Shown here: positions 4,572 through 31,609 of the stretch, one piece after another
How positions within the stretch are numbered: the first letter of the stretch is position 1
Layout of the letters: each line of letters starts with the position of its first letter
Assembly (NCBI GenBank): GCA_016929445.1
Contig: JAFGIU010000073.1
Span: 1 to 35,637, forward strand
Origin: Candidatus Omnitrophota bacterium
Lineage (GTDB): Bacteria > Omnitrophota > Gorgyraeia > JAFGIU01
Direction: 5' to 3'
Length of the DNA: 35,637 bases
Notes under the pieces: model-generated
Told to the model about the DNA's origin: nothing
Seen by the model: the letters and a program-made list of their open reading frames with translations, nothing else
Databases searched by the model: none
Position numbers and translations under genes: made by a program

Positions 4572-6146
4572 TCACTTGGCATATTCAACGGCCCGGGTCT
4601 CGCGGATAATCGTCACCTTGATTTGGCCCGGAAATTCCAAACCATCGCTGATCTTTTTGGACAGCTCGCGTGCCATCAGAGGCATTTCCCGGTCCGAGAC
4701 CTTGTGCGGTTCCACAATCACCCGGACCTCCCGGCCCGCCTGGATCGCATAGGCCTTGCCCACTCCCTTAAAAGTATCGGCGATCTTTTCAAGATTTTCC
4801 AATCGCTTCACATAACTTTCAAAGACTTCACGCCGCGCTCCGGGACGCGCCCCGCTGATGGCATCCGCAGCCTGAGCCAAAACCGACATCACGCTGCGCT
4901 GCTCCACTTCGCCGTGGTGAGCCTCCACTCCGTGACAAACTTCCTCGCTCTCGCCGTACTTGCGCACAAGCTGGCCGCCGATCACCGCGTGCGGGCCTTC
5001 CACATTATGGCTCACGGCCTTGCCCACATCGTGCAACAAACCAATCCGCCGCGCCAGCCAAAAATCCAGGCCCAGCTCTGAAGCCATTACCCCCATCAAA
5101 AAGGCGCACTCCTTGAGATGCTCCAAAACATTTTGGCCGTAACTGGTGCGGAAGCGCAGCCGGCCCAGGAGTTTGATGAGTTCCGGATGCAAACCCTGAA
5201 CCCCCACCTCCATCACGGCTTTCTCCCCTTCCTCCCAAATGATACGGTCCATCTCCTGTTTAGTTTTGGTCACGACCTCTTCGATGCGCGCCGGGTGAAT
5301 ACGGCCGTCGGTAATCAGAGTTTCCAGAGAACGCCGCGCTATTTCACGGCGCACGCCGTCAAAGGCCGAAAGCGTCACTGCCCCGGGGGTGTCGTCGATG
5401 ATTACATCCACGCCCGTGATCATTTCCAGCGCGCGGATATTGCGGCCCTCGCGCCCGATAATCCGGCCCTTCATGTCGTCCGAAGGTAACGGCACCACAC
5501 ACACGGTGCTTTCCATGGTCTGCTCTGCGGCGCAGCGCTGAATAGCCTCGGCCACGATCTTGCGTGCCTTGTGATCGGCGGCCATGCGCGTCTCTTCCTC
5601 AATTTGCTTGACCCTGACTCCTGCCTCATGCCGCAGTTCAAGCTCCAATTTGGATAGGAGCAGCCGGCGGCCTTCCTCGGCGCCCATTCCGGAAACCCGC
5701 TGCAAGAGGCGCTTTTCTTCCTCGATCAGGGACTGCAGTTCTTCTTCGTGCTCATGCAATTCCTTTTCGCGGGTTTTGATCCCCTGCTCCAGCGCCTGGA
5801 TGGACAGATCCTTCTTCTCCACCACCTCGAGTTTACGTTCCAGGTTTTCCTCGCGCTGCACCAGGCGCTGTTGCTGCTCGCTCAGCTCCTGCCGCCGCGT
5901 TTGGGTTTGCTTCTCAAATTCGGTTTGCATATTGAGAAGGCGGTCTTTGGAATCCAACTCCAGTTGGGTCCTGCGGTCTTCGATCTCTTGATCAGCAATC
6001 TGCACCCGGCGACTGGCTTCGGCCTCCGCACTCCCAATGCGGCGTTCTCCGATTCTCTTGCGCGCTCCATAGCCCAAGAAAATACCAATCACTGCGGCGG
6101 GCACAGCTGCTGCTAATAGCCATACGATGGAAATGGGGGTGGACAC
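4572..6146 (-). CDS. rny: Ribonuclease Y
   Basis: The 524-residue membrane-anchored endoribonuclease has an N-terminal transmembrane helix (residues 6-25, IVWLLAAAVPAAVIGIFLGY) and a long charged coiled coil (about 30-190). A KH RNA-binding domain contains GRIIGREGRNIR near residues 226-238. An HD metal-dependent domain carries LLHDVGKA, with the HD pair at His372-Asp373, and HHGEVEQ further on. The C-terminal part ends EFPGQIKVTIIRETRAVEYAK, the family norm. RNase Y starts mRNA decay at the inner membrane. The start is a GTG at 6146 preceded by GGGAGG seven bases upstream. The gene lies 41 bp after the folate cyclo-ligase and in the same run as ymdB, its functional partner in Bacillus. Confidence 0.97.
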   Translation of the reverse strand: MSTPISIVWLLAAAVPAAVIGIFLGYGARKRIGERRIGSAEAEASRRVQIADQEIEDRRTQLELDSKDRLLNMQTEFEKQTQTRRQELSEQQQRLVQREENLERKLEVVEKKDLSIQALEQGIKTREKELHEHEEELQSLIEEEKRLLQRVSGMGAEEGRRLLLSKLELELRHEAGVRVKQIEEETRMAADHKARKIVAEAIQRCAAEQTMESTVCVVPLPSDDMKGRIIGREGRNIRALEMITGVDVIIDDTPGAVTLSAFDGVRREIARRSLETLITDGRIHPARIEEVVTKTKQEMDRIIWEEGEKAVMEVGVQGLHPELIKLLGRLRFRTSYGQNVLEHLKECAFLMGVMASELGLDFWLARRIGLLHDVGKAVSHNVEGPHAVIGGQLVRKYGESEEVCHGVEAHHGEVEQRSVMSVLAQAADAISGARPGARREVFESYVKRLENLEKIADTFKGVGKAYAIQAGREVRVIVEPHKVSDREMPLMARELSKKISDGLEFPGQIKVTIIRETRAVEYAK

Positions 6147-9510: not shown

Positions 9511-12500
9511 TTAGAGGGCGGAAGTCAAGTCCACGGTGGCAAAGGCGGCGTCGGTGAGGGTGCCTGTGGCATCCGGCAATGGCGTCGCAGCTGCTGCGTG
9601 CCAGTCATCGAGCGTCTTCTCGCCATTGAGAACCTGCCGCGCCAGGGCAATGCGGGCGTTAACGGCCCGCACAACGGGTTCAACAAATTTTCTCAATTCC
9701 TCATGCTCCCCGCTGAGGGGCTCCACAGTCCAAGCTGGATGCCATTCGCGCTCCAAAGAGTCCATTAAAAGTCTTGCCTTGACCGGATCCGCTGTCCTAA
9801 CAATCTCAGTGAGAGATCTCTCCACATCACGGGGTAATTCCAAACCCAGCAAACGCGAAGCAGCCGCTTTTCCCAATCCACCGGATAGCCGGGGCCGCAG
9901 CCCGGGAATGTTAATGGCCGACGGAATTCCTTCGAAACGCAGCATTTCTCTCAGGAGTTCATCCAAAACCGCCAATGCGTCTGAATCATTGGCGAGCACA
10001 ATTTTGATGACCCGCACAGCCTTACGCTCCCGTGATGAATCCGTCATCCACACAGAATCATAGTGAGAGAAAGCCAGTCGCGTGGTCTCCGCTCTAGCAC
10101 TAAAGTCACTGGCATCAGAGTACTCAACCAGAACTTGCATGGACTCTCCATCTGCGCGGTCCAGGGTTACTCCCGATTCCAGAAGCGATTCAAAAAGCTG
10201 TCTCTGCGAAGACCCCTCATCCCAACGCAAACGCACCGCATTCAAGAGAGCCTGCTTCCTTTCCTTAATTTCACGGGGGTTTATTTGAGTGCCCGTGCGC
10301 ATCTCAGCCACCAGGGCATCAGCAAAGGCCTGCGCCGGATCCTCATCCCTCATAAAATTCTCTATCAGAACCCGGGGCCGGATCCCAAGCTCTTCGCACT
10401 TTTCAAGCATTGACTGCAATCTTGTTGCGCGATCGCCAAGAAACATATGAATTCCGCTCATGTAGAGGGGTCCCGAAGCATCCACTGCCAATGCAGCGAT
10501 CCTTTCCTCAAGTCCGGAAATCTTTTGAAAAACTTCCCCGGATACTTGGATTTCGAGCTCTTGCCTGGCAAATTCAGCATAAGTCATAGGTAACATCCCG
10601 GCATTCTTGGCGCGGTGGAATACCGCTTCCACAAGATCCATAAGCACTTCCAGCCCTACGGGTTTGCCTTGAACAGGAAAATAACCCGTAAATCTTGTTC
10701 CGGATCCGGCACCCCCTTCATGACTGTCCACATGCAAATGCCCGCCGGACGCGGTTACTAATTCATGAATGCTATGCAATCCCCTTCCAGTGCCCTTTGC
10801 AGTCTCTTGATTCTCCGGCGCCCTCCACCCCAGCGGGAAAAACCTCAACTCATCAAGGCTCTTTTGCGCAAGCCCCGGACCTTGATCTTTCACACTGACC
10901 GCAACCACTGGACGAAACTCCAGCGCATTACTTTCACACAAGAGCCCGTCTAAATCGGCCTGACCGGCGTCCACTTGCCGCAAGCGCAGAACAACCGACC
11001 CCCTCCCCAGCTTCTGTTGTATTTCTTTGTAGTCGAGCACCCAAGGCACTCTCACACCTTCCACCGATTGGGGAGAAATAGAAACCGGATCTCCCCGACT
11101 CAGGACCTGCTCCGTGCCGCCCTCCACATAAACAAGCTCTGCCTGAACCACAACTGCTGCGCTCCCCCTATTGGTGATCCGGCGCTCAATCGCCAGTTCA
11201 GCATCAGAAACCCCGCCCCGCAGCATTTTTGCTTCCCAGGGACCCCGGGCCAATCCTTCAGAGGGAACCGAAATACGGTCATCGACCGTTGCACCCAAAA
11301 GAACTAACGGCAGAATGGCATTGTCCAAACTCACGTCCACATTCTTCGGATCTCCCGGGCCAGTGGAACTCCCATACTTCCAGGCATTGGTCAGGAACTC
11401 CCACACAGTTTCCCTGGCAATAAAAGGCAGACTCGGTCCTTGAACATTCAGAGTATTTCCGCCATCCACGATTTGATAACTGAACGATGGAGATCCAAAC
11501 TGACGGGTGGCCTGATTTACTAAGTCATGCGTCAGTTGCCGGACATCCACCCCCTCTGCAAGCTGAGCCAACTCCCCTCCTTGCGCAAGATCCCTAAGGA
11601 GCTGCAACTGAGGCGCCACTTGGGTTTGCCAATATCCTTGTCCGGCCCCCGGAGCGAAGGAATATGCACTGCGGGTGTCCCGGAGTGGATCCAAAAATTC
11701 CCGGGCTTCCTTATTTAGAGCATCCGAAGGGATAGCCTGCTCGAACTCATCGATGAGTTCGTAAATTTCTTCATAGCGCGCATCCATGGCTTGAGCAGCC
11801 ATTGCAGCCCGTTCCAGCACAAGGTAAAGCATTCGATTGCGATACTGCGCGGCATCTTTGGAATAACCCGGCTGCCACCGGGCCGCATCCACTAAATGCG
11901 CAGCGACAACCAGAAATTCACCGGGGCTAAGTTCCGGCAACTGGATCCGGACCCCAGCCAAACTCAGCATAAACTCGTGCAATTCATTCTCATGAGTCTC
12001 AGCAGCAGCGGCCGCGGTTTCCGGCATCAACCCCGCCTGCACAGCCCAATTTCGAAGACCTTTATGAGAAGCCCGCCCCTCTCCAATACCCTCATTGATC
12101 AGAGGCGATAAGAAATACGGGTCAACTGCAAGGCCCTGGATCCAACCCTCCATTTGCCCAGTCACAAAAGTACTGAAACCAAATAGAGCAGCCTGTTCTG
12201 CCGAAGCCAAGCGGTGCGCCAAGCGCTCCAAAAGGCGCCCATCCAGAACATCTCCATTTGGATACTGTCCTTTTAATTCGCTTATCAGCTCTTGGGCAAA
12301 CGGCTCTTGCCGCAATTCCTCCAGACGGCTTCCAAGTGTCTGAATCCACTTAACCTCCTGAACCTCATGATAGAGGGCTTCCAACCGGAGCGCAGGATCG
12401 CGGCGTGCGCTATTGAGAACAACAACGCGGCTAGACGATCCACTTAGCGGATCACGGAGAAGCCCTTCGTAGGCAGGCGGCCCGTCTTCTCCCAGATCGG

Positions 12501-15500
12501 TAATATAAACAGGCAGACTCTGCAGCCCTTCCTCCAACTGATCCAAAGCGGCTGATCTCTTTTCAGCTGGAATCGCATGCGAGCCCTGATCGAGGAGTTT
12601 CCGCAACTCCTCCTGCGCGATGGGCGCTGCCCCGGAAAGGAGGCTGTTTAAGTCATATGTCCGCAACTCTTGCTGGTTCCACACTCCGATATCCTTGAGC
12701 GCGCCGCCTTCAGAAGAAGCAGCCAGGTTTAAACGGCCCCCAGAATGGCTCAGCCATCTTTGCTCTTGCCACAAGACAACACCGTCTGGACCCTTTATCT
12801 CGACTGTGATTGCAAGCGCCCCTTGTGACGCAGCCTGCAGAAGGCTGGAAATATCCAGAAGCAGATTCCCGTTTTCGATTAGGGTGCCTCTCGGCGCATT
12901 TCCCTGCCGGAATCTGAGATCTCCAGCAGGCCATTGCATTCTTATCCTGCGCGTGGGGATGCTTATCACAACCTGCGCGTCTTGAGGCAAGATACGTGCC
13001 CAAAACTCGGCATTGGCAATTTGCAGATAAGGGGTTTGGCCTGCGTACAGGCTTAAAAGACCGGGCGCATAGCGCCCAGACACATGGATAAGTTGACCCA
13101 GGCTCAATCCGCCGGCTTTTATCACAAGCCCAATAGCTTGGATATGATGATGCTGCAGCAGATACTCCACGAGAGCCAATCCGAGCTGCTCGTCATTCAA
13201 TGAAGTTTCTGCTCCAATTGCACGCGCCAAGCCTGCGCGCGGGTTGAGTAATGGATTATCAAGATACCTTGCGAATTCAGCTTGCTTATTTGTTTCAACC
13301 TCAAGAATCTTTCCGAGAATTACCACGGCATTCTCCCTAACCGCAACCACCTTGCCCAACACTTGTGCCGGACTGAGCCCCCCGCCCTGGCCGTCGCCGG
13401 TGAGAATGCCAAGAAGCCGCTCTCCGGCAAGTTGAGGGGATCTCTGATGCGCAGGTATTTGCAGAGACTCATACAGAGAATCCAACCATCTTGAAGAGCT
13501 CGGCGGATTATCAAGAACTTCTTCAATATGTTCGATCAATGCATAGGCAACATGCAAAGAGGTTTTTCCGTACGGCAGAGACAGCTGTTTTTGTCTCAAC
13601 AAATAATCCACGATTGCGTTTAAACCAGCGGCTTGGATGTCGGAGGTAACCGCCGCTTCGCGCTCCGATGCAAAACCAAGCAGCGAAGGCACGCCCGCTA
13701 AAACATCTGCAAACCCAATCCGGTTCTGTTGCGAGGCTGCTAAATAGGCTCGGTCAAGGCGCTTTGCCCAAGATTGCGGCGCCTCGGCACTGGGAGGCTC
13801 CTCAGCAAGCGGTGGATCGGTTTTCAACCGCTCATGGACTGTTCGCAATATACCTCCAAAACTCTCTTCTCCTAATCCTAAAGAATCAAGCAATGCTGCC
13901 CTAAATGCTCTTGCCTCAACGGACAGATTGCCGCCTTCTGATTCCATGCTGTCACGTATCCCGATGTAGCACACAACAAGAAGAGCCAAACCTTGCCGCT
14001 TGGCCGCAAGGTCCCCACCCTCCATAACCGGGAGTCTCAAATCCCTCATCGTGGGCCCGAGGCTCCTGAAAGCTGAGTCCACCGCTTGATCGCCATCAGA
14101 ATGGTAGCTTGTGTACTCTGAGCCCCGAACCAGTGAAACCAACCGATAAAGCACATCAGGGGAAGTGAGCGCCTCGCAAAGCGCTTCGGAGTGGGCACCC
14201 CCATCAACTGCTGTTTGCCAAGAGACAACTTGTTCAAGGCCCCAAACTTGGTGAAGCTCAATGGCTGCGCGGCTCAAGTCATCCCAATACTTCAGACTCC
14301 CACCCCCGCCCTGGCCGTCGATTTGCAGCCTCACAGACTTCGTTGCCAGGATTGTGCGAGACGATGGAGTCGAATTGCGATTCGACAGCACCCTCAGCGA
14401 AGCGGTCTCATAATTGGGTGGATTGCCCGCTTTGAAGGGCAGAAGAATATTGCAGGTGTTGTTTGGAGCCTCCTCCAAAACCACCCGACTTAACAGCGAC
14501 TCCTGCAAGACGTCGACTCCACCCAATACCACCGGGTAATCAGAATCGGAAACCAACTGCAAAGCTACCGCTCCAGACTGGATTTCATCCCCCAAGGCCC
14601 TCGGAAGGCCACCGAGACGTATGTAGTAAGTGTATGCTGCAAATGCTGTTCCCGGGCCTATACCTGTATTCCCTTCTTCTGCAACCCAGTCCGGCAATTC
14701 ACTCACTTGCCGCAGGGTTAATTCTCCGGAACAGGAAGCCAACGCCGTCTCCCATGAAACCTCTCCGCCCCCGCCCTGGCCGTCGGTAAGCCACGCTTGA
14801 ATGGACTTGGTGAGCGATTCCATACTCTCAAAGTCCAGGCGAGGAGATCCCGGCTTCTGCGAAAAAACAGCTTTGAGACCTGGGAGAAGAATGTCCTGGG
14901 CCAGGCCTACCCAGAAGTATTCAGGATCATTTATATTTGCAGCGCCTGAGAGAGCCCCCAGTTTCTCCAGTTCATGCATCATTGCCAAAGGAACTCGGTC
15001 TTTCGGTGACTCACCAATTGGCTGATAAGAAAATACCGAAGCCGTCTCTATCAGAATATCTGCATCTGAGATCCCAGATGTCGACCCTATTTCGCCCATA
15101 AAATAATCATGCCAGACTCTTAAGCTTGCAGGGTCTGTCAAGGCCTGTCTCAGGGCCAATAACTGCGGGGAGTCTGGAGCCGCTTGCGCTATTTCTCTCA
15201 AAAGAAGCGGCAGCGATAACGACGGAGTCGTCCGGGCAGCGCTGGCCTGGATTCCTAGGGAGCGCCCAGGCATTCTCACGGGCACTTCACCGGACAGCGC
15301 CGACACTTCTTGCTCCCCGCTCAGAACCCCGGAAAGGACAACACAGGCCTGCTCGGGACTTCCGTGGATATTTTGTACATTGCACAGATGGTGCACAGCT
15401 GTAATCAAACTGTCATAGCTGATCAGATAACCCACGCCGCCATCGGATCGAAGGCTGTCGCTCAGCCGTCCAATTTGGGCAAGCAACCCTTTGGTCACGG

Positions 15501-18500
15501 CCCGTTTGAGAACTGCCTCATTGTGCAGGTTCTGTGTGCCTATTGCGCCAGGCCGAAGCAAACCCTCCGCTTCCATCCTGTAGCAAGCCCAAGACAGTAC
15601 ATCCGGATTCACCTCTGCATTTTCCAAAAAGACATCAATAAAGTCTGGAATGTCAATGGGTTGCCTGTTCTGCTGTGGCATTTGACGGATTGTGCGGTTG
15701 TACTTGTGGATACGTGCAGTCATGTCCCGGACCCACGGAACCAGAATGGCCGGGGACACAAGTTTTTCCGTGAGCTGGGCCTGCAAGTCCTCCGAAGCCC
15801 ACTCATACTGGGCTCTTAAAAGCGCCTCACCGGCCCACGTGTCCATCTCCCGTGTAAAGGCTTCATTGGCTTCAGGCCCGAAGATCTCGTCTTGGATTCC
15901 GTAGAGCAGCGCGCGGCCTCGAACACCGAGATTCCAGTTAAATGTAATCAAACCCTCTTCCGATGCAGTCAGCCGGCGAACACACTCAGCCTCCAACGCA
16001 TTGAGAAAGTCTGGAAGATTGCGGGCGCGTTCCATCCCTTCATTAGTATCATGAGCATCCCGCACATCCTGTCCCACCCCGCGCCAGCGCGTGTGGTTGG
16101 TAACTGCATCAGGCATGTCTTGCGGACGGTCATTGGGGTTGACTGCGCCGTAGAGTTCCAGCGCTTCATGGAAAGGCCCTATGCCGCTGGGATGGAAGGC
16201 AGCTTGCGGGGTGAGGGAAACCGGGTTGTCGAGGGCGGGAACAGGCTGACTTGCGGTTAATTCCCAGAAACCGCGCGCATTTCCGTTGTCTTCAATGAGC
16301 TGAATCTCGCGGCCGCTTGCGTTAAAGCCACGGATATAGTCCGCCAATTCACGCGAGATCACCCCATCCGTGTGGAGTTTGCTTATCCGGAGCGATTCCA
16401 TTGTACCCAAAATGCCTTGCCCCAACTGCACCGTCTGGGCTCTCCCCTGGCTGTCCACCACATCTCGAACTCGAATCGGGGAGGAAGCCGCCCCGGGCCC
16501 ATCCCGGAGTTCGGCTCCGTCCGCGTCCAGCAGCGTGTATTCATTGGACACTCCCGTGGATTGCCGCTGCACTCCGCCCCGGTCGTAGAGCCCACCCTCA
16601 GGATCATAGCTTTTGCCCATGAACGCGCTCGAGGGACCCGAATTCGGGGGGGGATAGCGGTCTGCTCCGGCTCCAGCTGCTTTGGGATCAAAACCATCCT
16701 GGTAGGGGTCTTGATAACCCCGTCTTTCATTCTCCCGGATATAGATATTCCGCATCGCAGCGTAAGAGAATTGTGGGTAATCCCTCCAATGGGCGTATAT
16801 ATCGAGAAATGTCGCGTAGGGATCTAGCGGATCGTCCCCGTGCAATCGCAGGACCTCGGCCCAAATCCGGAGTTCTTCGGTGAAGGCTTCGTTGGCTTCA
16901 GGGCCGAAGATTTCGTCCTGGATGCCATACAGGAGTTCGCGGCCGGTTTTGCCACGGGCTGCGTTGTATCGAATGAGAGCCTTTTCCGCATCGGTCAGAG
17001 TGCGGGTGCTACCGTCGGCTTTTTCGATTGGATTTTGACTCAATGCGGTTTCCAATGCGGCAACAAGATCTTCTGCGCTCAAAGACGACCAGGCCGGGGC
17101 ATTCTGGTCAAAGAGATTGCGCAGGTCCTTGCCCGCGCCACGACCGAGGGTGTGGGGATTGAGGCCTTCCGGTAAGTTTACGTCCCGGAAATACCCTTCA
17201 ATGAGGAACTCGTGGAAAAAGGCAATGGGGTGGGTTGCGAGGCGTTTGGATATCCAAACAATCCCATCTTCATCCACAAAACCCCGGATATTCTCGTTGT
17301 CCTGGATGAGGTGCACTTGGGCCCCGGACTGGCGAATTATGCCAAGAAATTCCCGCACACGGGTGGCGGCTTCCGGCCCGATATCTTGGAACTGTCTTTC
17401 AAGCTCAGCCAACGGCTGCTCAAGCTGCCTAGCCAGCTCATCCGCTTGGCGCTGCGTCAACTTATCTGTCTGGTCCTCGGTAACTCTGGCTTGGATTCGC
17501 TCATTCATACCTGGCTTCCGCACCCACAACGGGTCCCATGTTTCCGCGTCCTTCAAATACCCGTTCTCGTCAACACTCACCCGCCCGGTGTGGAGGGTTT
17601 GAGAATCAACTGACGCATAAATCTTGCCCATGGCTGCGGTGGCAAGGCCAGATGCTAGCTTTTGTTCCCTATTTACGGCCGCAACGAGAATTTCCTGAAC
17701 TTTGGCTTCATGGGCCTGGATTGCGCGGGCCGCCTTTGCCCCCAAATAACGGCGGTAGGCCTTGTGATGGAAACCGCGGGAACCCTTAAGGTACTCCTCG
17801 ATGAGTTCGTTTCGACCGTCAACGTCTTGTAACGCAGCGCTGACTTCAGAAGAAGCCATGCTCTTTTTCCCTTTGTTCCCCTCGGCCAGCACGCGCTCCC
17901 CAGCGCCCAGCACATGGGCCAGATGCCTTTCGTCCTCTTCAATTTTCCGTAAGAGATTGGTGGCATGATCAAAGTCCGGGGCCTTAAACCAACTGCCCGC
18001 AAGCACGCGCATGGCGAATCCTGCGAAGAGACCGGCGATTCCCCTCAGGTTTGCATCGTGAAGCGCAGTCACCGCATTCCAGCGCGCAAGCTTGAGCTTG
18101 CGGCCCAGGGAAAGATGGCCGTTTAAGATCCGGAAACGGTGTTGCGCAAAACGCTCCCGCCAATAGATCTCCCGAAGGTCCTGGTAGGCAGCCGCGGATT
18201 GAACAGCGGGTTGATCGTCATATCGGGTGTTGATCGCCAGGACCCATTGAGGCTGGGTCTGACCCTGCAACTGGACTTGCATATAGGCTGCCGGGGGCCC
18301 CTTTTCCCCTCGGTTGCCCAGATCCGCTCGATAGATCGGCACCTGCCTGAAGTTGTAATAGCGGCGCGGGCTGAAGCGCAGCCAAACCCGAGCAGCCCCT
18401 ACAAAAACTGCCGCAGCAACCAGACTCAGGCCCACAGCACCCACAATGGTGGTAGCCAAAGGCACGGACACAGCCACTCCAAAGGCCACAAAACCCACTC

Positions 18501-21500
18501 CAAAAACGGCGAGTCCCTGATAAAGGCGCGCATCTCTCAACAACTTTCCTTCGTAGGGCCGCACTAGATTTTCGAAGAGGCTCCCTGCCGCGCCCCGCAA
18601 GAGCCCCCAGAGCGTGGTGCCGCGGCCGTTGACGCGGTCAACGGCCGAGCTAATGCCGCTCCCGGCCCGGCGGCCCATAGCGCGAAATACAGGCCTGAAG
18701 ACTCGCCTCAATCCCATCACCACAACCGGCACAACCAAAACCACCCCTGCAGCAGCAACACCCATAGCCGCGCCCGCTGCCAGACCCGCGCCCGCGCTCA
18801 GGGCAATCCCCAAGCCGGCGATTCCCGCAACAGGCACCCCAAGGATCACCGCGCTGCGCGCAGGATGCCGCAGCACCAGACGAGCCAAGCCCAGGGCCAG
18901 ATGAACCAAGAAAGGCGAGACCAGCACGAGCGGCACGGCGACGACTGCAAGAGAAAGTCCTCCCGCACTCAAGGCCGCGGCCCCGACCGCCAGACCCGCG
19001 GCAAACCCAAGGGAGCCTAAACGCACGGGCCGGGACAAAATTAGACGCACAATCCTGCGCACAACCCGCACCGGAACCAAAAGTGTTTGAACAGCCTTGA
19101 TGCCTGCAAGGGACTTGGCGCGCTCGGAAAGCCACTGCCTGAATGGCTTCAATGCTGCGTCAATTTCTGCTCGAGCCGCGGCCCACTCGGCCCGGGCTTC
19201 GCGTGCTGCCCCTGCGGTGGCCTGCCTTTCCCGCGCAAAATCTTGGCTAATAGCGGCCCTCCCTGCAGCCCATTGCTCGCCAACTTTCACTTCCGGCACC
19301 TCGATCTCTCCCAAACGGGAAGCGATTACAGGCGCAAAGATCCGGGAAAGACCCAGTACCATCAAACCTACACTCAAGGCAGGAGCCAGTTGAATCCCAG
19401 CGACCAGCGCCACGCCTGCGGCCAGAGCCGCCCCCGCAGCCACGAACACCCGCCGCTGGGTCACCCAGGCATGGAATCCCGCAAGTCCGGATGCCTGAGC
19501 GCGTTCAAGGGCCGGGGCCGTGCTGGACTTTACACGCCCCACTGCAGCCATTCCAGTCTGGTGTTCTTCCTCCGGGGAAGCCGGCCCTTGATCCCAACGG
19601 CGCCTGGCCACACCCGCGTAATACGCCAAAAAGCCCGCGGAAATATCCAACGGTGACACAAGGAACGCGGCCAGTCTCGAGAGCGGGCTGGGTCTTGTGG
19701 CCCTTTGGATATGCTTTGCAATCAGTCCGGTGCGGGGTGTGTTCTTGCTCAAAATCGGGGCAAAAAGTTCTTGTGTGTCTTCCCCGGTCAGCGGGCTGGC
19801 AGAATTCAATTGTGCCTGTAAATTCGCCGGCAGTTCAGAGTCTTCCACCCCGCGCACAGACATTAACTTGGCCGTATCCCAACGGATCGGAGTTGCGTCC
19901 TGCGCAGGTTCGGGCCACAACCAGTCCACATTGGCCACCAAGGCATAGGCCAAATTGCGGAGTTGGTCTTGATTGATCGCGCTTCCCCATTTGCGCGTTG
20001 AAGAATCCCAGGTCAGCAAGGTGCCGACGGACGCAGCGGCGGAATTTACATACAGAACCTGGTCTTCCCCCTCTTGAGCCAAAAGAACATGGACGGGTTT
20101 TCTCTCCGAGTTGAAGCCGCTCTCCTCAAAAAACCGGATTGCCCGGACAGAGGCCAAACCCGCTGACACTCTCCCAACTGCAATTGCTGCTTGGGAATTG
20201 CGGCCCAAAGTATCGGCTATCTCGTTAAAGACCTTCTCCAGTTCTGCACAGATTGGATCCCCTTGCGATAGCGCATAACCCGGAGACGGTTTCACCTTTG
20301 CCTTGCCTCTGGCAGGATCCTTGGCGTCTGCGGGGTACAAAGACCACCCTCCAGGACTGCTGAGTGGGCGCACAGCCCCTTTCCCAGGCAGGGAAACAGG
20401 CCCCACGTACGGATGAAAGGCTTTTGATTGGGCGCCTTGTGCTTTTCCATGCCACATCAAACCGCCATTCTGCATCGCTCCTATACCGTTTGCCACTCGT
20501 CCCTGTCGTTCCTGGGCATCGCTTGCGGCTTTAGCTTGTTGAACAGGATCCTCTCCCGCAGCCCAGATGCGCGCGCCCGTGGTGGCGGAGTTCCACGCCT
20601 TCCAAGACCGCACCACATCGTCTTTGCCCACCAATCGCGCCATTGCGGCAAAAGCAGTTGGAGAGCCGGCATAGGAGAGAACGGCTACAGCGTGCTTCAG
20701 CCGTGTGCCGAGAACGCCCTCTGCCGCCACCTCTTGAGCCCGGCCGCTGAGGACTGCCCGCACCACCGCAAAAGGATGGGATCGCATCAAGCTCCGGACG
20801 ATTTTCCGTGTCACATCATCTGGGGGTGCATTGCTCATCCGGCTCCGAATCAAATTCTCACGGCGATTCCACTCCTCTTGCCCCACGGAAGCTTTGAGGA
20901 CCTCTCCCAAGACTTTAGGATCGCGGCTGATTTGATCCCAGTGAAGACCAACGGCCAAAGGCATGCCCGCCAGTTCGGCAATCGCGGCAACCGCCTCCGC
21001 ATCCAGCGAAGTCCCGTAACCCGAGGCCAGAGCCTCCAGAATCATTTGATGCGAGGCCAGGGCTGACCGCAAGTCAGTGGTCCCGGGATTCAACATTTGT
21101 TGGCGCAGGTTGAGCATCAAACCGGTTTCCTTGAGCCCGTCCAGGGCTTGCTTGCGCAAACTTTCCGGCAAACCGCTACTTCCCAAAATACGCGCCAGAT
21201 GACGGACTTCCGGATTCGGCCCGGTTGCATCCAGGAAACTGGGGACTATTTCAGTGTGGGGGTTTATATTTAATCGACTTCCAAGCGAACTCAAAACCGG
21301 AACTCCCTGCTGCGCCGGGGCCAAGGCCGGGTCGGTCCATTGATTGTTCAGGACTCGGTGGACAGCAAGTTGGGTGGCGGCTTCAGCCGCATCACCGATC
21401 ATCCGGGCCTTCTCATGCCCCTGCATTTTCAAATCATTCAGGTTGTCGGAGCCTATCAGACCGCGCAAATCAGACAGCGGGATTGTGTCCCCGGTCATTC

Positions 21501-24500
21501 TGCCGCGAATCTCCTCCGCCATGGGAATCCCTCCCGGCGGCCCCTGCACCGGAACACCAAAAAGGCTGTCATAATCCCGGAAACGGATCTGCTCCAGGGT
21601 AAAGCGCTCTTTGCGCAGGAGAGAGCCCGCAGCCCAGATAGACACGGGAATCCAGGACAGATCGCCCCTCTTATCCATGACATCTTGCCAAGCCACTTCG
21701 CCCGCCACCACGCCGCAGAGCCATGCCATCTTGCTTTCCATGCTGGCCGCGGCGTTGCCGCGTTTGCCCAATTCAGCGTCCCATCCCAGGAACACGCGGT
21801 ACAGTGCCTCGTTGCGATTTTTCTCGCCGTTCATCTTGCGCTGCATGGCCCGCGCGATTTGCGGGTAGCGCTCCCAGTCCCGGAGCTGCTTGCGGCGGTA
21901 CGCGCCCAAACCAAACTGCGCGTACAAGTCCGCGTCTGCCAAAACTCCGGCCGCCTCTTCAACGCTTTGCCAATCCTCGGACACCGCAGCAAACTGAAGG
22001 CGTCCTGGATCGCTGCGCAGGGTGCGCAGCCAGTGCTGGCGCCGGCCTTCCCTATATAGGGCTTCTGCGATTAATTCAGTCTGGCCTTCATAGGCCTTAT
22101 TGAGCACAATCACATCCTGGCTTGTGACCGGATCCTTGCCTATGAAGAGAGGGCCACCCTTGAGCCCGTTCGGATGCGTGCCCCAATGCACGGCAGGCGC
22201 CTTTTGGTATCCCTTGTCCACCAGGGCAAAGGTGCTAAAGCCAAGGGCGGAAATTCCAAAGCAAAGGGCGATGACCCCCACCGGAGCCAGTAGGATGCCC
22301 GCGCCCACGGCTCCTGCAGTCCACAGAGTTTTTCCGGCCCCTGCCCAATCCTTGGTGATAAGCTGGACGGCAAAGGTGATTCCAAACACCATCACTCCCA
22401 AGGCAGTCAAGAGAGCTAATGCCAAACTCGCCGATACAGCAACCAGGAATCCTGAAGCCACTAAGGCCGTCCCCACCAGTAAAGCCGTCCCGGTGCGCAG
22501 ACCCAAACGCCCCAGAACTGAACTGACGCGGCGCAAGCCGGGGCGCAACCGCCAGCCCTGGGCCTGGGGCCAAAGGCCCTCCTGAAATTCAGAGAACACT
22601 GAAGACTCTGATTTCACCATGGGATGATCCAAGAAAAGGTCTTGGATCTCTTGCTGAGACCTTGCCAGAGATTCTGCCGCCGCATCCGGGACTGCGGAAA
22701 AATCGCCCCAGACCACTCTTTGAGGCCCGCCCAGGCGGCGCTCCTCCGCCTCGATCCACAACTGTTCCAACTTGGCTGGCGGAGGGTTCTCACCGTGAAG
22801 CACGGAGGCCAGGGTTTGAATCGCAGGCATTCGAAGCGGCTTGTCTTCATGCCTACCTTCAGGCGTAATATTCACTTCAAAGGTGGCCAGGAGTTCCAAG
22901 GTTTCTATGATTTCCGCGCGGGCCTGGGGGGCATTCTTGGGACGCAACTCGCTTAACGTCACCCCTCCCGGTGAGGTCGTGGCATGCGAATCCAGCGCCA
23001 TCGCGAGGCTACCCAATAACTCCACACTCTTTTCGCGAATCGTTTGACTTTCCTCCGGCGCCAGCTTGCCGCCCGCTGATTTCATCTGGATGTCGCGAAG
23101 GACGCGGACCAGAAGAAGGACAGGGTCGGCCTGCGCAGCTTTATCCGCTGTCCGCAGCTCTGTATCGGAGGAATAGTTCCGAATGAGCTGCACGGCTTGT
23201 ATTGCCAAGACCTCAAGCGCGCTGAAGGCCTGCTCACGCAGCTCCTGTGAAGGCAATTGCTCGTGTTGCCCCGGCTCGCCGTTGATCAAATGGCCCAGGA
23301 TTTGGATTTCTTGGGCAAGGGATTGCCACGAGCTCGGAGGATGCTGCCGGACAAAGTTTGCGTAAGCCCGAACTGCCGGGGCGGCAAGGGCCGGCGGGCC
23401 CTGGAGACAGTGTTGCAGGAAAGCACGGGCTGCCTCTGGGTTGCCGATTTCCGTGCCTTGCCCCAAGTTCCAATCCAGATACCAAGCACTGGCAATTTGA
23501 TCCTCGAGTGAAGCGGATAACAAATTCTGTATGGGTGTCCATGGCCTCTTCGCTAGGACAGATGCCCAGACCTTCTGATTCGAATTTTCGTAACGCAATA
23601 GCTCTTGATCTTCTATGCGGCCCAGCATTGCCTGAGCCACGGCATGGTGCAGGCTGCGGTCTTCCTGAAGCAACCAAGCCAAGTCCTCAGTGTTTCCCTC
23701 ACGGTGGCCTTGGGCCAAGCGCTCCCACTCATGCAACGTGTATGCAGACACACCAAAGTCCCGGGTATGAACTTCCGCGCCAAGCCGGTGAGCCCAAAGT
23801 TCGACCCATTCATCCCCCTGAAGAGCAAGCTCCTGTTCCAGACGCTCTAGGTTGGCTTTGAGTCTGGTGACCTCAGGACTTTGCAGCGCTTGAGCTCCGG
23901 CTTGTTCCAGCCGGGTGCTGAGTTCCTTTTGGTGAGCCCGGGCAAGGCCTTTGATTTTTCTCCGCCTGAGCCACGCCCCGGGACTCCGCCCGCCCAATCG
24001 CGCAACCCAGGCAAGCTCCGCCAATTCGCGGTGAATGGCTTCGGCTTGTTCAGCCTCGGAACGGCTGGCGTTCACCACAATTACGGACTTGCCGCCCACC
24101 ATCCCGTGATACGCCAATTCCTCTCCGCTGACCAAAGGCACTTGGTAAACCGGCACTGCGCTTTGATCTTCCCCCACACCCCATGCCCTTGCCTCCCGGC
24201 GCAAACCATCCAAGCCCGGAAGTTGAAGCGCCAGCGGTGCGGCCACGGCCAAAATTCCCAAGCCGATCAAAACTGCCGGAGCTGCGGCAGGAGCCGCCAG
24301 CAAGGCCATTGCCACACCCAAGCCCGCGACAGCCAGGCCTAACACCGGTGCCTGAGATCGCAGATAGGAGCTGAGGGACCAGCGAGTTCTATAATCTTCA
24401 CCGATTTGCGTATCTGGATATTGCCTTTGAGCTGCCTCAATGCGTTGCTTCTCGTTGTAGCGGTGAGCGCGCCACAAATTGCCTCCGCGAATGATCACAT

Positions 24501-25743
24501 AGCCCAGCAATCCGACCGGAGCCGCCAACGCCGCTACAGGCAACACAGCCGGAGCAAAGACAACGGCCAGGCCGGCTGCCGCTGCCAAGACTCCGACTCC
24601 GCCGATGCCCCATCGCAAACGCATGATCTGCATTCCCATGCGACGCACACCGCCCGCAAATCCGCGGGCTGTTCCCCCAGGCCACAGATTCTGATTGATG
24701 CGCTTCTGAATGCGCTGCACGCGAGGGTCTTTGGGATCTGCGGAAGGCAAGGGAAGATTCTGAAGTAAGGTTTGGACTTGGCCGCGCGAAAGAAGTGTTG
24801 CGTCATCCCGCGCCAGCGTGTCTGCCAAATCAATAGGTTTAAACTGATCCGATGGGCCCATGCTTTTTTGGGCATAGGCGGAAACGGCTGCTGGGGCGTC
24901 TGCCGATGCAGCTCCAGGCTGATCATCAAATGCAGCTTGGGCCGTTAATACAGTCCGGAAAGCCAGTGCTTGCTCAAGACCGTTAACTAAAGCCCCAGCA
25001 AGCTCCAGTGCAGGCTTTTCCGGTAAATCATTAAACACCCTTTTTAATTCCTCCGGCAGGCCTCTATAATCATCGGTTTTTTGCCACTCATTGAGGGCTT
25101 CTTGCCACACGGCTTGGCTGATCTGAGCACTGATATGGTGCTCTCTAAAAAAGCGGTCCAAATACTGTTCTTGAATCGAGACTTCTCTTGTGAAAAACTT
25201 TCCAGCGGTAACATAATTCAGTTCCTGATCACCCTGATACCGAATAACCGAAGGCCTATTTTCACTTATTTCCCGCACCAAATTTGCCAGGAAACTCGAT
25301 ATCTCAGGTTGAACCATGAGGCCCCACATTCGAACTTCAGCTTTTTCATCAAACAAATTCTTTGCTCTGAGTATCTCGAAGAAGCGCAGATAATCGTCTT
25401 TGTGCGAAGGACCAAACCAGGAGCGCGCCACTTGCCAGGCTGCCTCATCCTCTGTTTTCTGCGCTGCGGCTGCAAGCATGGCAAAGGAATAGCTGAGTTC
25501 CGGTTCTACAGAGCCTACTAGATTGGATTCTCGGAGGACCTGACGGAGCCTGGCAGCAAAGGGAGCGCTGACGGCGAGCTCGTGGGTCACAGATTGCTTC
25601 GCCTGCGGCTCGCAATGACGAGCCAGGGGTCGCAATGACTCGATGGGCGCGGCGACACTCAGGTCCACGCTCGTAAACACAAAGACCTGCGCCATGACCA
25701 CAGCGATCAACCGAAACCAAAGTTTTTGGGTGAGTTTGCTCAT
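9511..25743 (-). CDS. Giant 5,410-residue exported or membrane protein with C-terminal GHKL ATPase domain
   Basis: One uninterrupted frame begins with ATG at 25743 after an AGGA. Residues 1-32 form a signal sequence (basic start, WFRLIAVVMAQVFVF, then SVAAP), followed by SLRPLA, a sequence style I associate with Omnitrophota giants. Ala/Val-rich hydrophobic segments lie near residues 375-420, 463-510, 1085-1176, 2098-2138, 2253-2351 and 2408-2458. A diverged module recurs near residues 531, 1186, 2466 and 4404. A duplicated segment covers about 2799-2963 and 3141-3303. Gly-rich DGQGGG linkers lie near 3650, 3805 and 4110. A HATPase_c domain occupies about 4730-5020 with His4739, Glu4782/Asn4786 (N box), Asp4953-x-Gly-x-Gly (G1) and Gly4984-T-G-R-G (G2). 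Long helical stretches fill the rest. Function is unknown; surface, adhesion or predatory roles are guesses. It is transcribed alone. Confidence 0.9.
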   Translation of the reverse strand: MSKLTQKLWFRLIAVVMAQVFVFTSVDLSVAAPIESLRPLARHCEPQAKQSVTHELAVSAPFAARLRQVLRESNLVGSVEPELSYSFAMLAAAAQKTEDEAAWQVARSWFGPSHKDDYLRFFEILRAKNLFDEKAEVRMWGLMVQPEISSFLANLVREISENRPSVIRYQGDQELNYVTAGKFFTREVSIQEQYLDRFFREHHISAQISQAVWQEALNEWQKTDDYRGLPEELKRVFNDLPEKPALELAGALVNGLEQALAFRTVLTAQAAFDDQPGAASADAPAAVSAYAQKSMGPSDQFKPIDLADTLARDDATLLSRGQVQTLLQNLPLPSADPKDPRVQRIQKRINQNLWPGGTARGFAGGVRRMGMQIMRLRWGIGGVGVLAAAAGLAVVFAPAVLPVAALAAPVGLLGYVIIRGGNLWRAHRYNEKQRIEAAQRQYPDTQIGEDYRTRWSLSSYLRSQAPVLGLAVAGLGVAMALLAAPAAAPAVLIGLGILAVAAPLALQLPGLDGLRREARAWGVGEDQSAVPVYQVPLVSGEELAYHGMVGGKSVIVVNASRSEAEQAEAIHRELAELAWVARLGGRSPGAWLRRRKIKGLARAHQKELSTRLEQAGAQALQSPEVTRLKANLERLEQELALQGDEWVELWAHRLGAEVHTRDFGVSAYTLHEWERLAQGHREGNTEDLAWLLQEDRSLHHAVAQAMLGRIEDQELLRYENSNQKVWASVLAKRPWTPIQNLLSASLEDQIASAWYLDWNLGQGTEIGNPEAARAFLQHCLQGPPALAAPAVRAYANFVRQHPPSSWQSLAQEIQILGHLINGEPGQHEQLPSQELREQAFSALEVLAIQAVQLIRNYSSDTELRTADKAAQADPVLLLVRVLRDIQMKSAGGKLAPEESQTIREKSVELLGSLAMALDSHATTSPGGVTLSELRPKNAPQARAEIIETLELLATFEVNITPEGRHEDKPLRMPAIQTLASVLHGENPPPAKLEQLWIEAEERRLGGPQRVVWGDFSAVPDAAAESLARSQQEIQDLFLDHPMVKSESSVFSEFQEGLWPQAQGWRLRPGLRRVSSVLGRLGLRTGTALLVGTALVASGFLVAVSASLALALLTALGVMVFGITFAVQLITKDWAGAGKTLWTAGAVGAGILLAPVGVIALCFGISALGFSTFALVDKGYQKAPAVHWGTHPNGLKGGPLFIGKDPVTSQDVIVLNKAYEGQTELIAEALYREGRRQHWLRTLRSDPGRLQFAAVSEDWQSVEEAAGVLADADLYAQFGLGAYRRKQLRDWERYPQIARAMQRKMNGEKNRNEALYRVFLGWDAELGKRGNAAASMESKMAWLCGVVAGEVAWQDVMDKRGDLSWIPVSIWAAGSLLRKERFTLEQIRFRDYDSLFGVPVQGPPGGIPMAEEIRGRMTGDTIPLSDLRGLIGSDNLNDLKMQGHEKARMIGDAAEAATQLAVHRVLNNQWTDPALAPAQQGVPVLSSLGSRLNINPHTEIVPSFLDATGPNPEVRHLARILGSSGLPESLRKQALDGLKETGLMLNLRQQMLNPGTTDLRSALASHQMILEALASGYGTSLDAEAVAAIAELAGMPLAVGLHWDQISRDPKVLGEVLKASVGQEEWNRRENLIRSRMSNAPPDDVTRKIVRSLMRSHPFAVVRAVLSGRAQEVAAEGVLGTRLKHAVAVLSYAGSPTAFAAMARLVGKDDVVRSWKAWNSATTGARIWAAGEDPVQQAKAASDAQERQGRVANGIGAMQNGGLMWHGKAQGAQSKAFHPYVGPVSLPGKGAVRPLSSPGGWSLYPADAKDPARGKAKVKPSPGYALSQGDPICAELEKVFNEIADTLGRNSQAAIAVGRVSAGLASVRAIRFFEESGFNSERKPVHVLLAQEGEDQVLYVNSAAASVGTLLTWDSSTRKWGSAINQDQLRNLAYALVANVDWLWPEPAQDATPIRWDTAKLMSVRGVEDSELPANLQAQLNSASPLTGEDTQELFAPILSKNTPRTGLIAKHIQRATRPSPLSRLAAFLVSPLDISAGFLAYYAGVARRRWDQGPASPEEEHQTGMAAVGRVKSSTAPALERAQASGLAGFHAWVTQRRVFVAAGAALAAGVALVAGIQLAPALSVGLMVLGLSRIFAPVIASRLGEIEVPEVKVGEQWAAGRAAISQDFARERQATAGAAREARAEWAAARAEIDAALKPFRQWLSERAKSLAGIKAVQTLLVPVRVVRRIVRLILSRPVRLGSLGFAAGLAVGAAALSAGGLSLAVVAVPLVLVSPFLVHLALGLARLVLRHPARSAVILGVPVAGIAGLGIALSAGAGLAAGAAMGVAAAGVVLVVPVVVMGLRRVFRPVFRAMGRRAGSGISSAVDRVNGRGTTLWGLLRGAAGSLFENLVRPYEGKLLRDARLYQGLAVFGVGFVAFGVAVSVPLATTIVGAVGLSLVAAAVFVGAARVWLRFSPRRYYNFRQVPIYRADLGNRGEKGPPAAYMQVQLQGQTQPQWVLAINTRYDDQPAVQSAAAYQDLREIYWRERFAQHRFRILNGHLSLGRKLKLARWNAVTALHDANLRGIAGLFAGFAMRVLAGSWFKAPDFDHATNLLRKIEEDERHLAHVLGAGERVLAEGNKGKKSMASSEVSAALQDVDGRNELIEEYLKGSRGFHHKAYRRYLGAKAARAIQAHEAKVQEILVAAVNREQKLASGLATAAMGKIYASVDSQTLHTGRVSVDENGYLKDAETWDPLWVRKPGMNERIQARVTEDQTDKLTQRQADELARQLEQPLAELERQFQDIGPEAATRVREFLGIIRQSGAQVHLIQDNENIRGFVDEDGIVWISKRLATHPIAFFHEFLIEGYFRDVNLPEGLNPHTLGRGAGKDLRNLFDQNAPAWSSLSAEDLVAALETALSQNPIEKADGSTRTLTDAEKALIRYNAARGKTGRELLYGIQDEIFGPEANEAFTEELRIWAEVLRLHGDDPLDPYATFLDIYAHWRDYPQFSYAAMRNIYIRENERRGYQDPYQDGFDPKAAGAGADRYPPPNSGPSSAFMGKSYDPEGGLYDRGGVQRQSTGVSNEYTLLDADGAELRDGPGAASSPIRVRDVVDSQGRAQTVQLGQGILGTMESLRISKLHTDGVISRELADYIRGFNASGREIQLIEDNGNARGFWELTASQPVPALDNPVSLTPQAAFHPSGIGPFHEALELYGAVNPNDRPQDMPDAVTNHTRWRGVGQDVRDAHDTNEGMERARNLPDFLNALEAECVRRLTASEEGLITFNWNLGVRGRALLYGIQDEIFGPEANEAFTREMDTWAGEALLRAQYEWASEDLQAQLTEKLVSPAILVPWVRDMTARIHKYNRTIRQMPQQNRQPIDIPDFIDVFLENAEVNPDVLSWACYRMEAEGLLRPGAIGTQNLHNEAVLKRAVTKGLLAQIGRLSDSLRSDGGVGYLISYDSLITAVHHLCNVQNIHGSPEQACVVLSGVLSGEQEVSALSGEVPVRMPGRSLGIQASAARTTPSLSLPLLLREIAQAAPDSPQLLALRQALTDPASLRVWHDYFMGEIGSTSGISDADILIETASVFSYQPIGESPKDRVPLAMMHELEKLGALSGAANINDPEYFWVGLAQDILLPGLKAVFSQKPGSPRLDFESMESLTKSIQAWLTDGQGGGGEVSWETALASCSGELTLRQVSELPDWVAEEGNTGIGPGTAFAAYTYYIRLGGLPRALGDEIQSGAVALQLVSDSDYPVVLGGVDVLQESLLSRVVLEEAPNNTCNILLPFKAGNPPNYETASLRVLSNRNSTPSSRTILATKSVRLQIDGQGGGGSLKYWDDLSRAAIELHQVWGLEQVVSWQTAVDGGAHSEALCEALTSPDVLYRLVSLVRGSEYTSYHSDGDQAVDSAFRSLGPTMRDLRLPVMEGGDLAAKRQGLALLVVCYIGIRDSMESEGGNLSVEARAFRAALLDSLGLGEESFGGILRTVHERLKTDPPLAEEPPSAEAPQSWAKRLDRAYLAASQQNRIGFADVLAGVPSLLGFASEREAAVTSDIQAAGLNAIVDYLLRQKQLSLPYGKTSLHVAYALIEHIEEVLDNPPSSSRWLDSLYESLQIPAHQRSPQLAGERLLGILTGDGQGGGLSPAQVLGKVVAVRENAVVILGKILEVETNKQAEFARYLDNPLLNPRAGLARAIGAETSLNDEQLGLALVEYLLQHHHIQAIGLVIKAGGLSLGQLIHVSGRYAPGLLSLYAGQTPYLQIANAEFWARILPQDAQVVISIPTRRIRMQWPAGDLRFRQGNAPRGTLIENGNLLLDISSLLQAASQGALAITVEIKGPDGVVLWQEQRWLSHSGGRLNLAASSEGGALKDIGVWNQQELRTYDLNSLLSGAAPIAQEELRKLLDQGSHAIPAEKRSAALDQLEEGLQSLPVYITDLGEDGPPAYEGLLRDPLSGSSSRVVVLNSARRDPALRLEALYHEVQEVKWIQTLGSRLEELRQEPFAQELISELKGQYPNGDVLDGRLLERLAHRLASAEQAALFGFSTFVTGQMEGWIQGLAVDPYFLSPLINEGIGEGRASHKGLRNWAVQAGLMPETAAAAAETHENELHEFMLSLAGVRIQLPELSPGEFLVVAAHLVDAARWQPGYSKDAAQYRNRMLYLVLERAAMAAQAMDARYEEIYELIDEFEQAIPSDALNKEAREFLDPLRDTRSAYSFAPGAGQGYWQTQVAPQLQLLRDLAQGGELAQLAEGVDVRQLTHDLVNQATRQFGSPSFSYQIVDGGNTLNVQGPSLPFIARETVWEFLTNAWKYGSSTGPGDPKNVDVSLDNAILPLVLLGATVDDRISVPSEGLARGPWEAKMLRGGVSDAELAIERRITNRGSAAVVVQAELVYVEGGTEQVLSRGDPVSISPQSVEGVRVPWVLDYKEIQQKLGRGSVVLRLRQVDAGQADLDGLLCESNALEFRPVVAVSVKDQGPGLAQKSLDELRFFPLGWRAPENQETAKGTGRGLHSIHELVTASGGHLHVDSHEGGAGSGTRFTGYFPVQGKPVGLEVLMDLVEAVFHRAKNAGMLPMTYAEFARQELEIQVSGEVFQKISGLEERIAALAVDASGPLYMSGIHMFLGDRATRLQSMLEKCEELGIRPRVLIENFMRDEDPAQAFADALVAEMRTGTQINPREIKERKQALLNAVRLRWDEGSSQRQLFESLLESGVTLDRADGESMQVLVEYSDASDFSARAETTRLAFSHYDSVWMTDSSRERKAVRVIKIVLANDSDALAVLDELLREMLRFEGIPSAINIPGLRPRLSGGLGKAAASRLLGLELPRDVERSLTEIVRTADPVKARLLMDSLEREWHPAWTVEPLSGEHEELRKFVEPVVRAVNARIALARQVLNGEKTLDDWHAAAATPLPDATGTLTDAAFATVDLTSAL
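10690..11550 (-). other. GHKL (HATPase_c) domain inside the giant protein, split by an inserted domain
   Basis: The order on the protein is LTHDLVN (His4739), N box ETVWEFLTNAWKYG (Asn4786), a stretch of about 160 residues, G1 VKDQGPGL (Asp4953), G2 GTGRGLHSIHEL and the closing GSGTRFTGYFPV. In sensor kinases N and G1 boxes are only some 30 residues apart. The inserted part (RRITNRGSAAVVVQAELVYV and following) looks like a beta-sandwich. All nucleotide-binding motifs are intact, so ATP binding is plausible. Confidence 0.8.
13383..13400 (-). repeat. DGQGGG linker, copy 3 of an 18-mer
   Basis: The 18-mer CCCCCGCCCTGGCCGTCG on the plus strand encodes DGQGGG on the minus strand. It occurs around here and at 14303-14320 and 14767-14784 within the giant gene. 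This copy lies near residue 4115. Confidence 0.7.
14303..14320 (-). repeat. DGQGGG linker, copy 2 of an 18-mer
   Basis: Same exact 18-mer, encoding QIDGQGGGGSLKYW near residue 3808 of the giant protein. Confidence 0.8.
14767..14784 (-). repeat. DGQGGG linker, copy 1 of an 18-mer
   Basis: Same exact 18-mer, encoding LTDGQGGGGEVSW near residue 3653. Copies 1 and 2 are 464 bp apart and enclose one module of about 150 residues. Confidence 0.8.
15835..16330 (-). repeat. Internal duplication of the giant gene, second copy
   Basis: Encodes IQLIEDNGNARGFWEL, PFHEALELYG and GRALLYGIQDEIFGPEANEA in order, matching the copy at 16855-17345. The last segment is nearly the same in both copies at DNA level. 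The HExxxxxY pattern is not the HExxH of zinc peptidases. Confidence 0.85.
16855..17345 (-). repeat. Internal duplication of the giant gene, first copy
   Basis: Encodes VHLIQDNENIRGFVDEDG, FFHEFLIEGYF and GRELLYGIQDEIFGPEANEA. The GIQDEIFGPEANEAFT segment is identical in the two copies; the parts before it have diverged. Confidence 0.85.
25591..25640. repeat. Dispersed repeat fragment inserted in frame behind the signal sequence of the giant protein
   Basis: The minus strand reads GTCATTGCGAGCCGCAGGCG and then AAGCAATCT, translated as RHCEPQAKQS at residues 42-51. This string is a common translation of intergenic repeats in many bacteria. The 10-mer TCGCAATGAC occurs twice, 20 bp apart (25610 and 25630). 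Confidence 0.7.
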
Positions 25744-27207: not shown

Positions 27208-28535
27208 TTAGGGTTCGACGATGCGAATGTAATCGATAGCCACGGAATCACCAGGGGCGGGGTTCTTCAGGGGGTCAAGCCGCACACGGGTCACAATGCC
27301 GCTCCAGGTGGATTTCTGACTGAGGTCCACCGCGGCTGTATGGGGATTGCCGTCGGCAATCACCGGAAATTCGATCCAGCGTCCGCCGCTGCCGGGCATC
27401 AGGGTCCCCTCAGCCCACATGAACTGCATCAAGGCGTCGGAACTGTTGAGTGTGTAGCGAATCTCCACGCGGGTTTTTCGCGCGGAGTCGATTTCCAGGC
27501 CCGCGGCACTGCGCCAGTGCGGGTCGGTGCCGGTAACCACGGCGCGCAACTGGCCTGCGCTCACGGCTTCGGAACCCAAGCTCCGAACTGAAATCCAGCC
27601 CTCAAAATTCCCGCTCTCATTAAACTCCCACACACCGGCCGGAGCGGGCGTTGCGGAACTCTGAATCAAACGGACATAATCGATGTCCACGGAATCGCCG
27701 GTTTCCGGACTCTGCAGCGGATCCAGGCGCACCTGGCTGACAACCCCGGACCACAAGGCATTGGAACCCAGGTAAACCGACACCTCGCGCAAAGTTCCGT
27801 CCGCAATCACCGGGAACTCCACTCGCTTCCCGCCCCCGCCCGGCACATCCGAACCCGCGGCCCACATGAAGGCAGCCATGCGATCATTGCTCCACATGCG
27901 ATATCCCAGTTGAAGCGTATTCTGTTGGCTCGCATTGATGTTCTGGCCGGGCGCGCTGCGCCAATGAGGATCTGTCCCGCTGATATCCGCGTGCAAAAAT
28001 CCGGATCGGACTTCCTGGTTGCTCAAGCTGCGCACCGGCATCCAACCCTCGGCATCCCCGGATTTATTGAATTCCCAAACGCCGCCTGTGGGCAGAGCCG
28101 GCAAAACCTCATCCGAAAAACGAATGTAGTCAATGGATACCGCGTCCCCAAGCTCAGGCGCTTTCAACGGGTCCAGGCGGAATTGAGTTGCAATGCCCGT
28201 CCAGGTGGACTGTGCGCTCAGGTCCACCGCAACCTCATGCGGGCTCCCGTCTGCGGTCACCACAAACTCAATCCAACGCCCCCCGCTGCCGGGCATCAAA
28301 TCCCCTTCCGCCCACATAAACTGCGCTACCGCATCGGAGCTGGTCAGCGTGTACCCGATGCGAAGCGTGCGGAACAAGTCCGTGTCCAGAGTATAACCGG
28401 CCGCGCTGCGCCAATGCGGGTCTGTGCCGCTCACCACAGCCCGCAACCGGCCCCCGCTCACAACCTCATTACTCAAACTCCGGATCGATTCCCAGCCTTC
28501 AAAATCCCCGGCTGTGTCAAACTCCCAACCAAAGC
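27208..28535 (-). repeat. Three C-terminal repeat modules of the protease
   Basis: Modules lie at about 28535-28100, 28095-27650 and 27640-27208. Each starts W-E-F and ends with RLDPL, a GD pair and IDY(I/V)R. The outer two are closest to each other (FMWAEG, MPGSGGRWIEF); the middle one has diverged (FMWAAG, PGGGGKRVEF). They resemble carbohydrate-binding jelly rolls, but ligand residues cannot be assigned. Confidence 0.85.
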
Positions 28536-31566: not shown

Positions 31567-31609
31567 AAGACTCCCCAATCGGTTTTTCTTTGGTTTTAAA
31601 GCTAATTTA

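Follow-up and report, generated by a model that had tools for sequence, protein, structure and literature searches.

What an ATPase domain of the histidine kinase type is doing in a giant protein that begins with an export signal is the question raised by open reading frame P0001 (5410 aa; 9511..25743, minus strand, as are all P0001 features below), which lies in the 35,637-nucleotide stretch of Candidatus Omnitrophota DNA analyzed here (the window). Giant open reading frames of Omnitrophota are already known, though poorly understood (PMC10066038; PMC11573180). The closest relatives of the source genome in our comparison set came from the same class only. No internal repeats were found within P0001 by blastp (1e-4), and near the end of the protein lies an ATPase domain that is apparently intact and is split by a second, unrelated domain.

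Inspection of P0001, by eye only, also picked out recurrent short motifs around residues ~545, ~1190, ~2460, ~2740, ~3060 and ~4490 that resemble a degenerate zincin motif (HExx), examples being IHRELAELAW, FHEFLIEGY, FHEALELYG and LYHEVQEVKW. Elsewhere in the window, positions 27208-31638 (minus strand) encode a subtilase (Peptidase_S8) bearing both FG-GAP and C-terminal repeats, whose ordinary-looking signal sequence differs from the shared leader described below.

A GHKL domain with its three boxes in order

The HATPase_c (GHKL) domain, identified by Pfam and by AlphaFold2 combined with Foldseek, spans residues ~4731-5023 of P0001 (10675..11553), insertion included, and the N, G1 and G2 boxes follow one another in order inside it. 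The N box (residues 4779-4790, TVWEFLTNAWKY; 11374..11409) contains Glu4782, Asn4786 and Lys4789; its sequence is TVWEFLTNAWKYGSS, and Asn4786 follows T4785 within TNAWKYG. The G1 box, KDQGPGL (residues 4952-4958; 10870..10890), has Asp4953 preceded by K4952, and the G2 box, GTGRGL, occupies residues 4984-4989 (10777..10794). Both were recognized by Pfam, in which the G1-G2 half matched HATPase_c with 41.6 bits (E 1.9e-10), above the curated cut-off. Asn4786, Asp4953 and Gly4984 stand where an earlier reading of the letters without database searches (the sequence-only reading) had put them, and its identification of a histidine-kinase-type ATPase domain, here in a giant leader-bearing protein, is supported by the three boxes and the Pfam match.

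The solved structures nearest by sequence were catalytic domains of histidine kinases, namely ZraS and YycG, with CckA weaker. The domain is remote from the kinases of its own genome, in which ~30 HATPase matches were counted, the best partial match reaching 40% over ~105 residues. It resembles HATPase_c (PF02518) and the kinase CA domains of CckA (5idm) and ZraS in its boxes, the order of its elements and the sequence similarity of the G1-G2 half. Unlike those of CckA and ZraS, it carries a predicted beta-sandwich of ~133 residues between N and G1, is without a dimerization/phospho-acceptor domain, has a Glu four residues before the N-box Asn, and is embedded in a 5410-aa leader-bearing protein. 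This residue, Glu4782, replaces the Asn found in the own-genome kinase L039 and takes the position of the general base in GyrB, MutL, Hsp90 and SpoIIAB-type proteins. The Glu four before the Asn is shared with the SpoIIAB/RsbW-type GHKL kinases (HATPase_c_2, PF13581), the cut-off of which was passed once the insertion had been excised. SpoIIAB/RsbW-type kinases are small cytoplasmic anti-sigma factors that have no insertion.

A domain nested between the N and G1 boxes

Asn4786 and Asp4953 are 167 residues apart in P0001, compared with ~28 for the same pair in L039, a histidine kinase of the same genome. The nested domain (residues ~4809-4941; 10921..11319), a predicted beta-sandwich delimited by AlphaFold2/Foldseek and by a Pfam excision test, received no Pfam match of its own. 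When residues 4809-4941 were excised, with splice points picked by eye, once, the HATPase_c score rose from 41.6 to 53.9 bits and the match covered profile positions 7-110 of 111, N box included, while HATPase_c_2 scored 28.0 bits and so exceeded its cut-off (27.4). In control runs the isolated G1-G2 half reached 38.8 bits with HATPase_c, and the same half placed behind five foreign upstream sequences (two hand-scrambled sequences and three other segments of P0001) gave 36.7-37.4 bits, all from profile position ~38. Because excision extends the match to the N box and the controls start at ~38, the N box is taken to belong to the HATPase domain. With an HMM built from own-genome kinases only, the N half added just 2.8 bits, which is not clearly above the controls, so the support for the N box comes from the broader profiles of Pfam.

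The excision test supports the insertion that the sequence-only reading had placed between N and G1, at a net size (~133 residues) somewhat smaller than the ~160 residues first estimated. The nesting of one domain in another is likewise upheld, and its identity as a beta-sandwich is only probable, being drawn from an AlphaFold2 model with a pTM of 0.46 and a Foldseek match to 3but. Relatives with the same insertion numbered zero in sets of 99 and 292 same-class genomes and zero in the genome contig database.

Predicted fold of the ATPase domain

Fold prediction had been put forward by the sequence-only reading as a check on whether the three boxes come together around one nucleotide site. Two AlphaFold2 models were obtained from shallow alignments, with mean pLDDT values of 60 and 63. 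The first, in which the N half was poor, gave no Foldseek matches below 1e-3. The second (pLDDT 63, pTM 0.46) is of low confidence and runs in the order alpha-beta-beta-alpha(N)-beta-(sandwich)-beta(G1)-alpha-alpha(G2)-beta-beta, which is the Bergerat order with an added beta-sandwich, the core of which reached a pLDDT of about 77-86. Foldseek searches of the PDB matched this second model to the AMPPNP-bound CckA CA domain (5idm; E 5.5e-4, probability 1.00) and to the beta-sandwich protein 3but (E 3.0e-4).

The placement of the N box is biased by the structure alignment (A8), in which rows were split and those aligning at the N box selected; alignments A2 and A3 were left out of the structure prediction because in them, with whole kinases aligned to the query, the insertion was matched to the N box. 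Given the Bergerat order and the CckA match, a single nucleotide site enclosed by all three boxes is likely in the model, and no more than likely at a pTM of 0.46.

Export signal and hydrophobic blocks

Judged by its parts, the N-terminus of P0001 (residues 1-34, MSKLTQKLWFRLIAVVMAQVFVFTSVDLSVAAPI; 25642..25743) is a Sec-type signal sequence, with a positively charged n-region, a hydrophobic core and a small-x-Ala site that forms a signal-peptidase-I-like site after Ala31. Hydropathy analysis located seven hydrophobic blocks of roughly hairpin length, one of them probably double. Block 1 (residues 377-421; 24481..24615), of hairpin length and with positive flanks, is followed by block 2 (residues 463-511; 24211..24357), blocks 3 and 4 (residues 1084-1130 and 1140-1176; 22216..22494), block 5 (residues 2097-2142; 19318..19455), block 6 (residues 2242-2353; 18685..19020), which is probably two hairpins, and the last block (residues 2407-2457; 18373..18525). 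After residue 2457, hydropathy gave no hydrophobic block in the ~2950 residues that follow.

Since the blocks are of hairpin length, the number of membrane crossings is probably even, which would leave the C-terminus of P0001 on the side of the membrane where residue 40 lies. The flanks of the blocks, in turn, contain 54 K/R versus 22 D/E in 308 residues, so that by the positive-inside rule cytoplasmic flanks are favored, which argues against export of the ATPase domain. With the leader for and the flank charges against, we consider export of this domain somewhat more probable than its retention. For the exported giant of the sequence-only reading, which had suggested a topology prediction of its hydrophobic blocks, the evidence is divided, the leader pointing out and the flank charges pointing in.

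A set of proteins marked by the same leader

The leader of P0001 is shared. Its consensus, W.R.IAL..AQVF..TS....AAP or W.R.IAL..AQVF..TS...S.AAP, begins ~24 proteins of the source genome (18 strong matches and six weaker ones), which are mostly large or giant and otherwise mostly unrelated. In the alignment of the 18 leaders the one invariant column is the Ala of the small-x-Ala site (Ala31), and by hydropathy most leader proteins are without a further hydrophobic segment. Weaker matches to the leader also stand at the start of giants, 4031 to 20415 aa long, from G009, G020 and G047, which belong to other families of the class.

The complete leader proteins also have in common a hydrophobic, mostly Leu, end, which in P0001 is the C-terminal TSAL (9514..9525). 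All 13 of the 13 complete proteins end in Leu, Ile or Val, and 10 of them in Leu, often as [SA][AS]L (TSAL, QSAL, ESAL); the pattern is also found in L093, L095, L096, L098, L099, L102, L104, L106, L178, L180, L181 and L182. Among other long ORFs sampled, ~3 of ~64 ended in Leu (rough Fisher p 7e-8), a comparison in which the reference set consisted of ORFs, not curated genes, and the last four leader proteins were checked after the pattern had been noticed. At the edge of the window, a 1310-aa frame (31705-35637, minus strand) that runs off the contig end terminates in AGQL and has no Pfam match; it may be the end part of a further giant of the leader set.

Going by their sequences, several normally intracellular enzyme domains are fused behind one export signal in this genome. 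The leader protein at L070:11880-18995 (plus strand, contig C41 of the source genome, G000) is ~2366 aa or longer and combines a HATPase with several HTH modules of the LuxR/sigma-70-region-4 type. Another leader protein, a 3481-aa frame truncated at the contig edge (L092:2-10444, minus strand, G000:C85), has domains of the glutamate synthase, FAD-binding and 4Fe-4S types. A third leader protein, a 605-aa frame (L102:384-2198, plus strand, G000:C4), joins NTPase_1 to nucleoside diphosphate kinase (NDK); in it the Walker A motif GSSYVGKT and the NDK motif HASDS are kept and the active sites look intact. A phosphorylase domain is carried by L094 and a HAD hydrolase domain by L100. HATPases also occur in large frames of two other genomes of the class: G020 has one of 2719 aa, whose start is leader-like, and one of 9075 aa that the contig end truncates, and G044 has one of at least 1891 aa. 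With HATPases recurring in a sister protein and in these large frames, an ATPase domain in a protein of this kind is no isolated accident.

In nine proteins (L091, L092, L093, L096, L099, L101, L103, L105 and L106; alignment A5) the leader is followed by a conserved domain with the motifs HIQDLHAHxEAQxN and EGAxG, for which no Pfam family was reported. Among the loci with this domain, 33 of the 34 named records are Omnitrophota or Omnitrophica. This leader-marked set is a more interesting observation than the variant ATPase domain itself.

Possible functions of the ATPase domain

The nearest sequence matches of the domain, being histidine kinase CA domains, would fit a sensor histidine kinase of the orthodox kind in which His4739 is the phospho-acceptor; the sequence-only reading had noted a His ahead of the boxes. 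The residue is present, within LTHDLVN (residues 4737-4743; 11515..11535), but this segment belongs to the ATPase domain's own helix 1 and is not an H-box: VDVRQLTHDLVNQATRQF aligns with the first helix of a kinase CA domain, and VDVRQLTHDLVNQATRQFGSPSFSYQIV of P0001 matches in position the opening helix and strand of the catalytic domain itself, the counterpart in L039 being VDLEKLVLGLAKTFQSELKKRSQKLQIEL. His4739 is 47 residues before Asn4786, versus a His-to-N-box-Asn spacing of 113-114 in the 11 own-genome kinases with a recognizable H-box. No His occurs between residues 4617 and 4738 of P0001, no HisKA-type domain was matched by Pfam, and a DHp/HisKA domain with a His ~100-115 residues before the N-box Asn is absent. 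Contig C73 has no response regulator that could be a nearby cognate partner, though the genome has 32 Response_reg matches; orphan kinases exist, so the missing neighbor is a weak argument. Because it has no dimerization/phospho-acceptor module at the required spacing, the P0001 domain is probably not a classical sensor histidine kinase. The orthodox kinase was rejected on its H-to-N spacing and the missing HisKA, and we consider it highly improbable.

Signaling across the membrane would place the C-terminal half in the cytoplasm, where the ATPase domain would phosphorylate a partner or relay a signal sensed by the outer part. Although the positive charge flanking the seven hydrophobic blocks, of which one is probably double, and the genome's ~30 HATPase and 32 response-regulator matches are consistent with such a role, it is made doubtful by the signal-peptidase-like Ala, invariant in 18 paralogues of which most have no other hydrophobic segment, by the even crossings that hairpin-length blocks make probable, with the C-terminus on the side of residue 40, and by the absence of an H-box, a HisKA and a neighboring response regulator alike. 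Alternatively, the ATPase domain of a housekeeping kinase may have been captured and kept, without catalysis, to serve a surface giant in structure or adhesion. Extracellular ATP is scarce, a nested beta-sandwich would suit adhesion, and giant Omnitrophota ORFs have been proposed as adhesins (PMC10066038). However, the nucleotide-contact motifs are all kept despite the remoteness of the domain from the kinases of this genome (best partial match 40% over ~105 residues), and catalytic motifs are kept in other leader proteins too, which makes a captured, inactive module unlikely.

The domain with its three boxes and its insertion was directly observed, as was the leader common to the set. The explanation that we prefer, and to which we give an even chance, is a GHKL ATP-binder with a nested sandwich in a giant bearing a Sec signal, which is not a classical histidine kinase and probably acts outside the cytoplasm of its producer. 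The GHKL domain would bind ATP and may work as an ATPase or as the kinase of a protein partner, and the sandwich nested in the N-G1 hairpin could be a binding or regulatory module. P0001 would then be one of the leader-marked fusions of intracellular-type enzyme modules, would be exported from the producer, and would act at a site outside the producer's cytoplasm where nucleotides are present, such as the inside of a host or prey cell. The general view is that GHKL enzymes, when ATP-dependent, function in places that contain ATP. It is rather unlikely, on the sequences at hand, that some Omnitrophota release a dedicated set of mostly giant proteins, with one conserved leader and a conserved hydrophobic C-terminus, that carries working enzymes of intracellular type (GHKL ATPases, nucleotide kinases, redox enzymes and DNA-binding modules) destined for the cytoplasm of another cell or another nucleotide-containing space.

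Relation to other Omnitrophota giants

P0001 resembles the giant Omnitrophota ORFs described in the accessible parts of Seymour et al. 2023 (PMC10066038) in phylum, size, hydrophobic helices and few recognizable domains. Those parts report adhesion-type domains and few annotated domains, and make no mention of an ATPase, or of another enzyme domain of intracellular type, placed behind a shared leader. Searches of the accessible literature turned up no relevant paper on GHKL ATPases that are exported or extracellular. The P0001 domain is a known domain varied, inside a recognized but still puzzling class of giant proteins. Omnitrophota are suspected predators or parasites of other microbes. An intact GHKL domain together with an export signal provides a testable lead to the role of their giant proteins, and the shared leader is a simple handle for listing the whole protein set in a genome.
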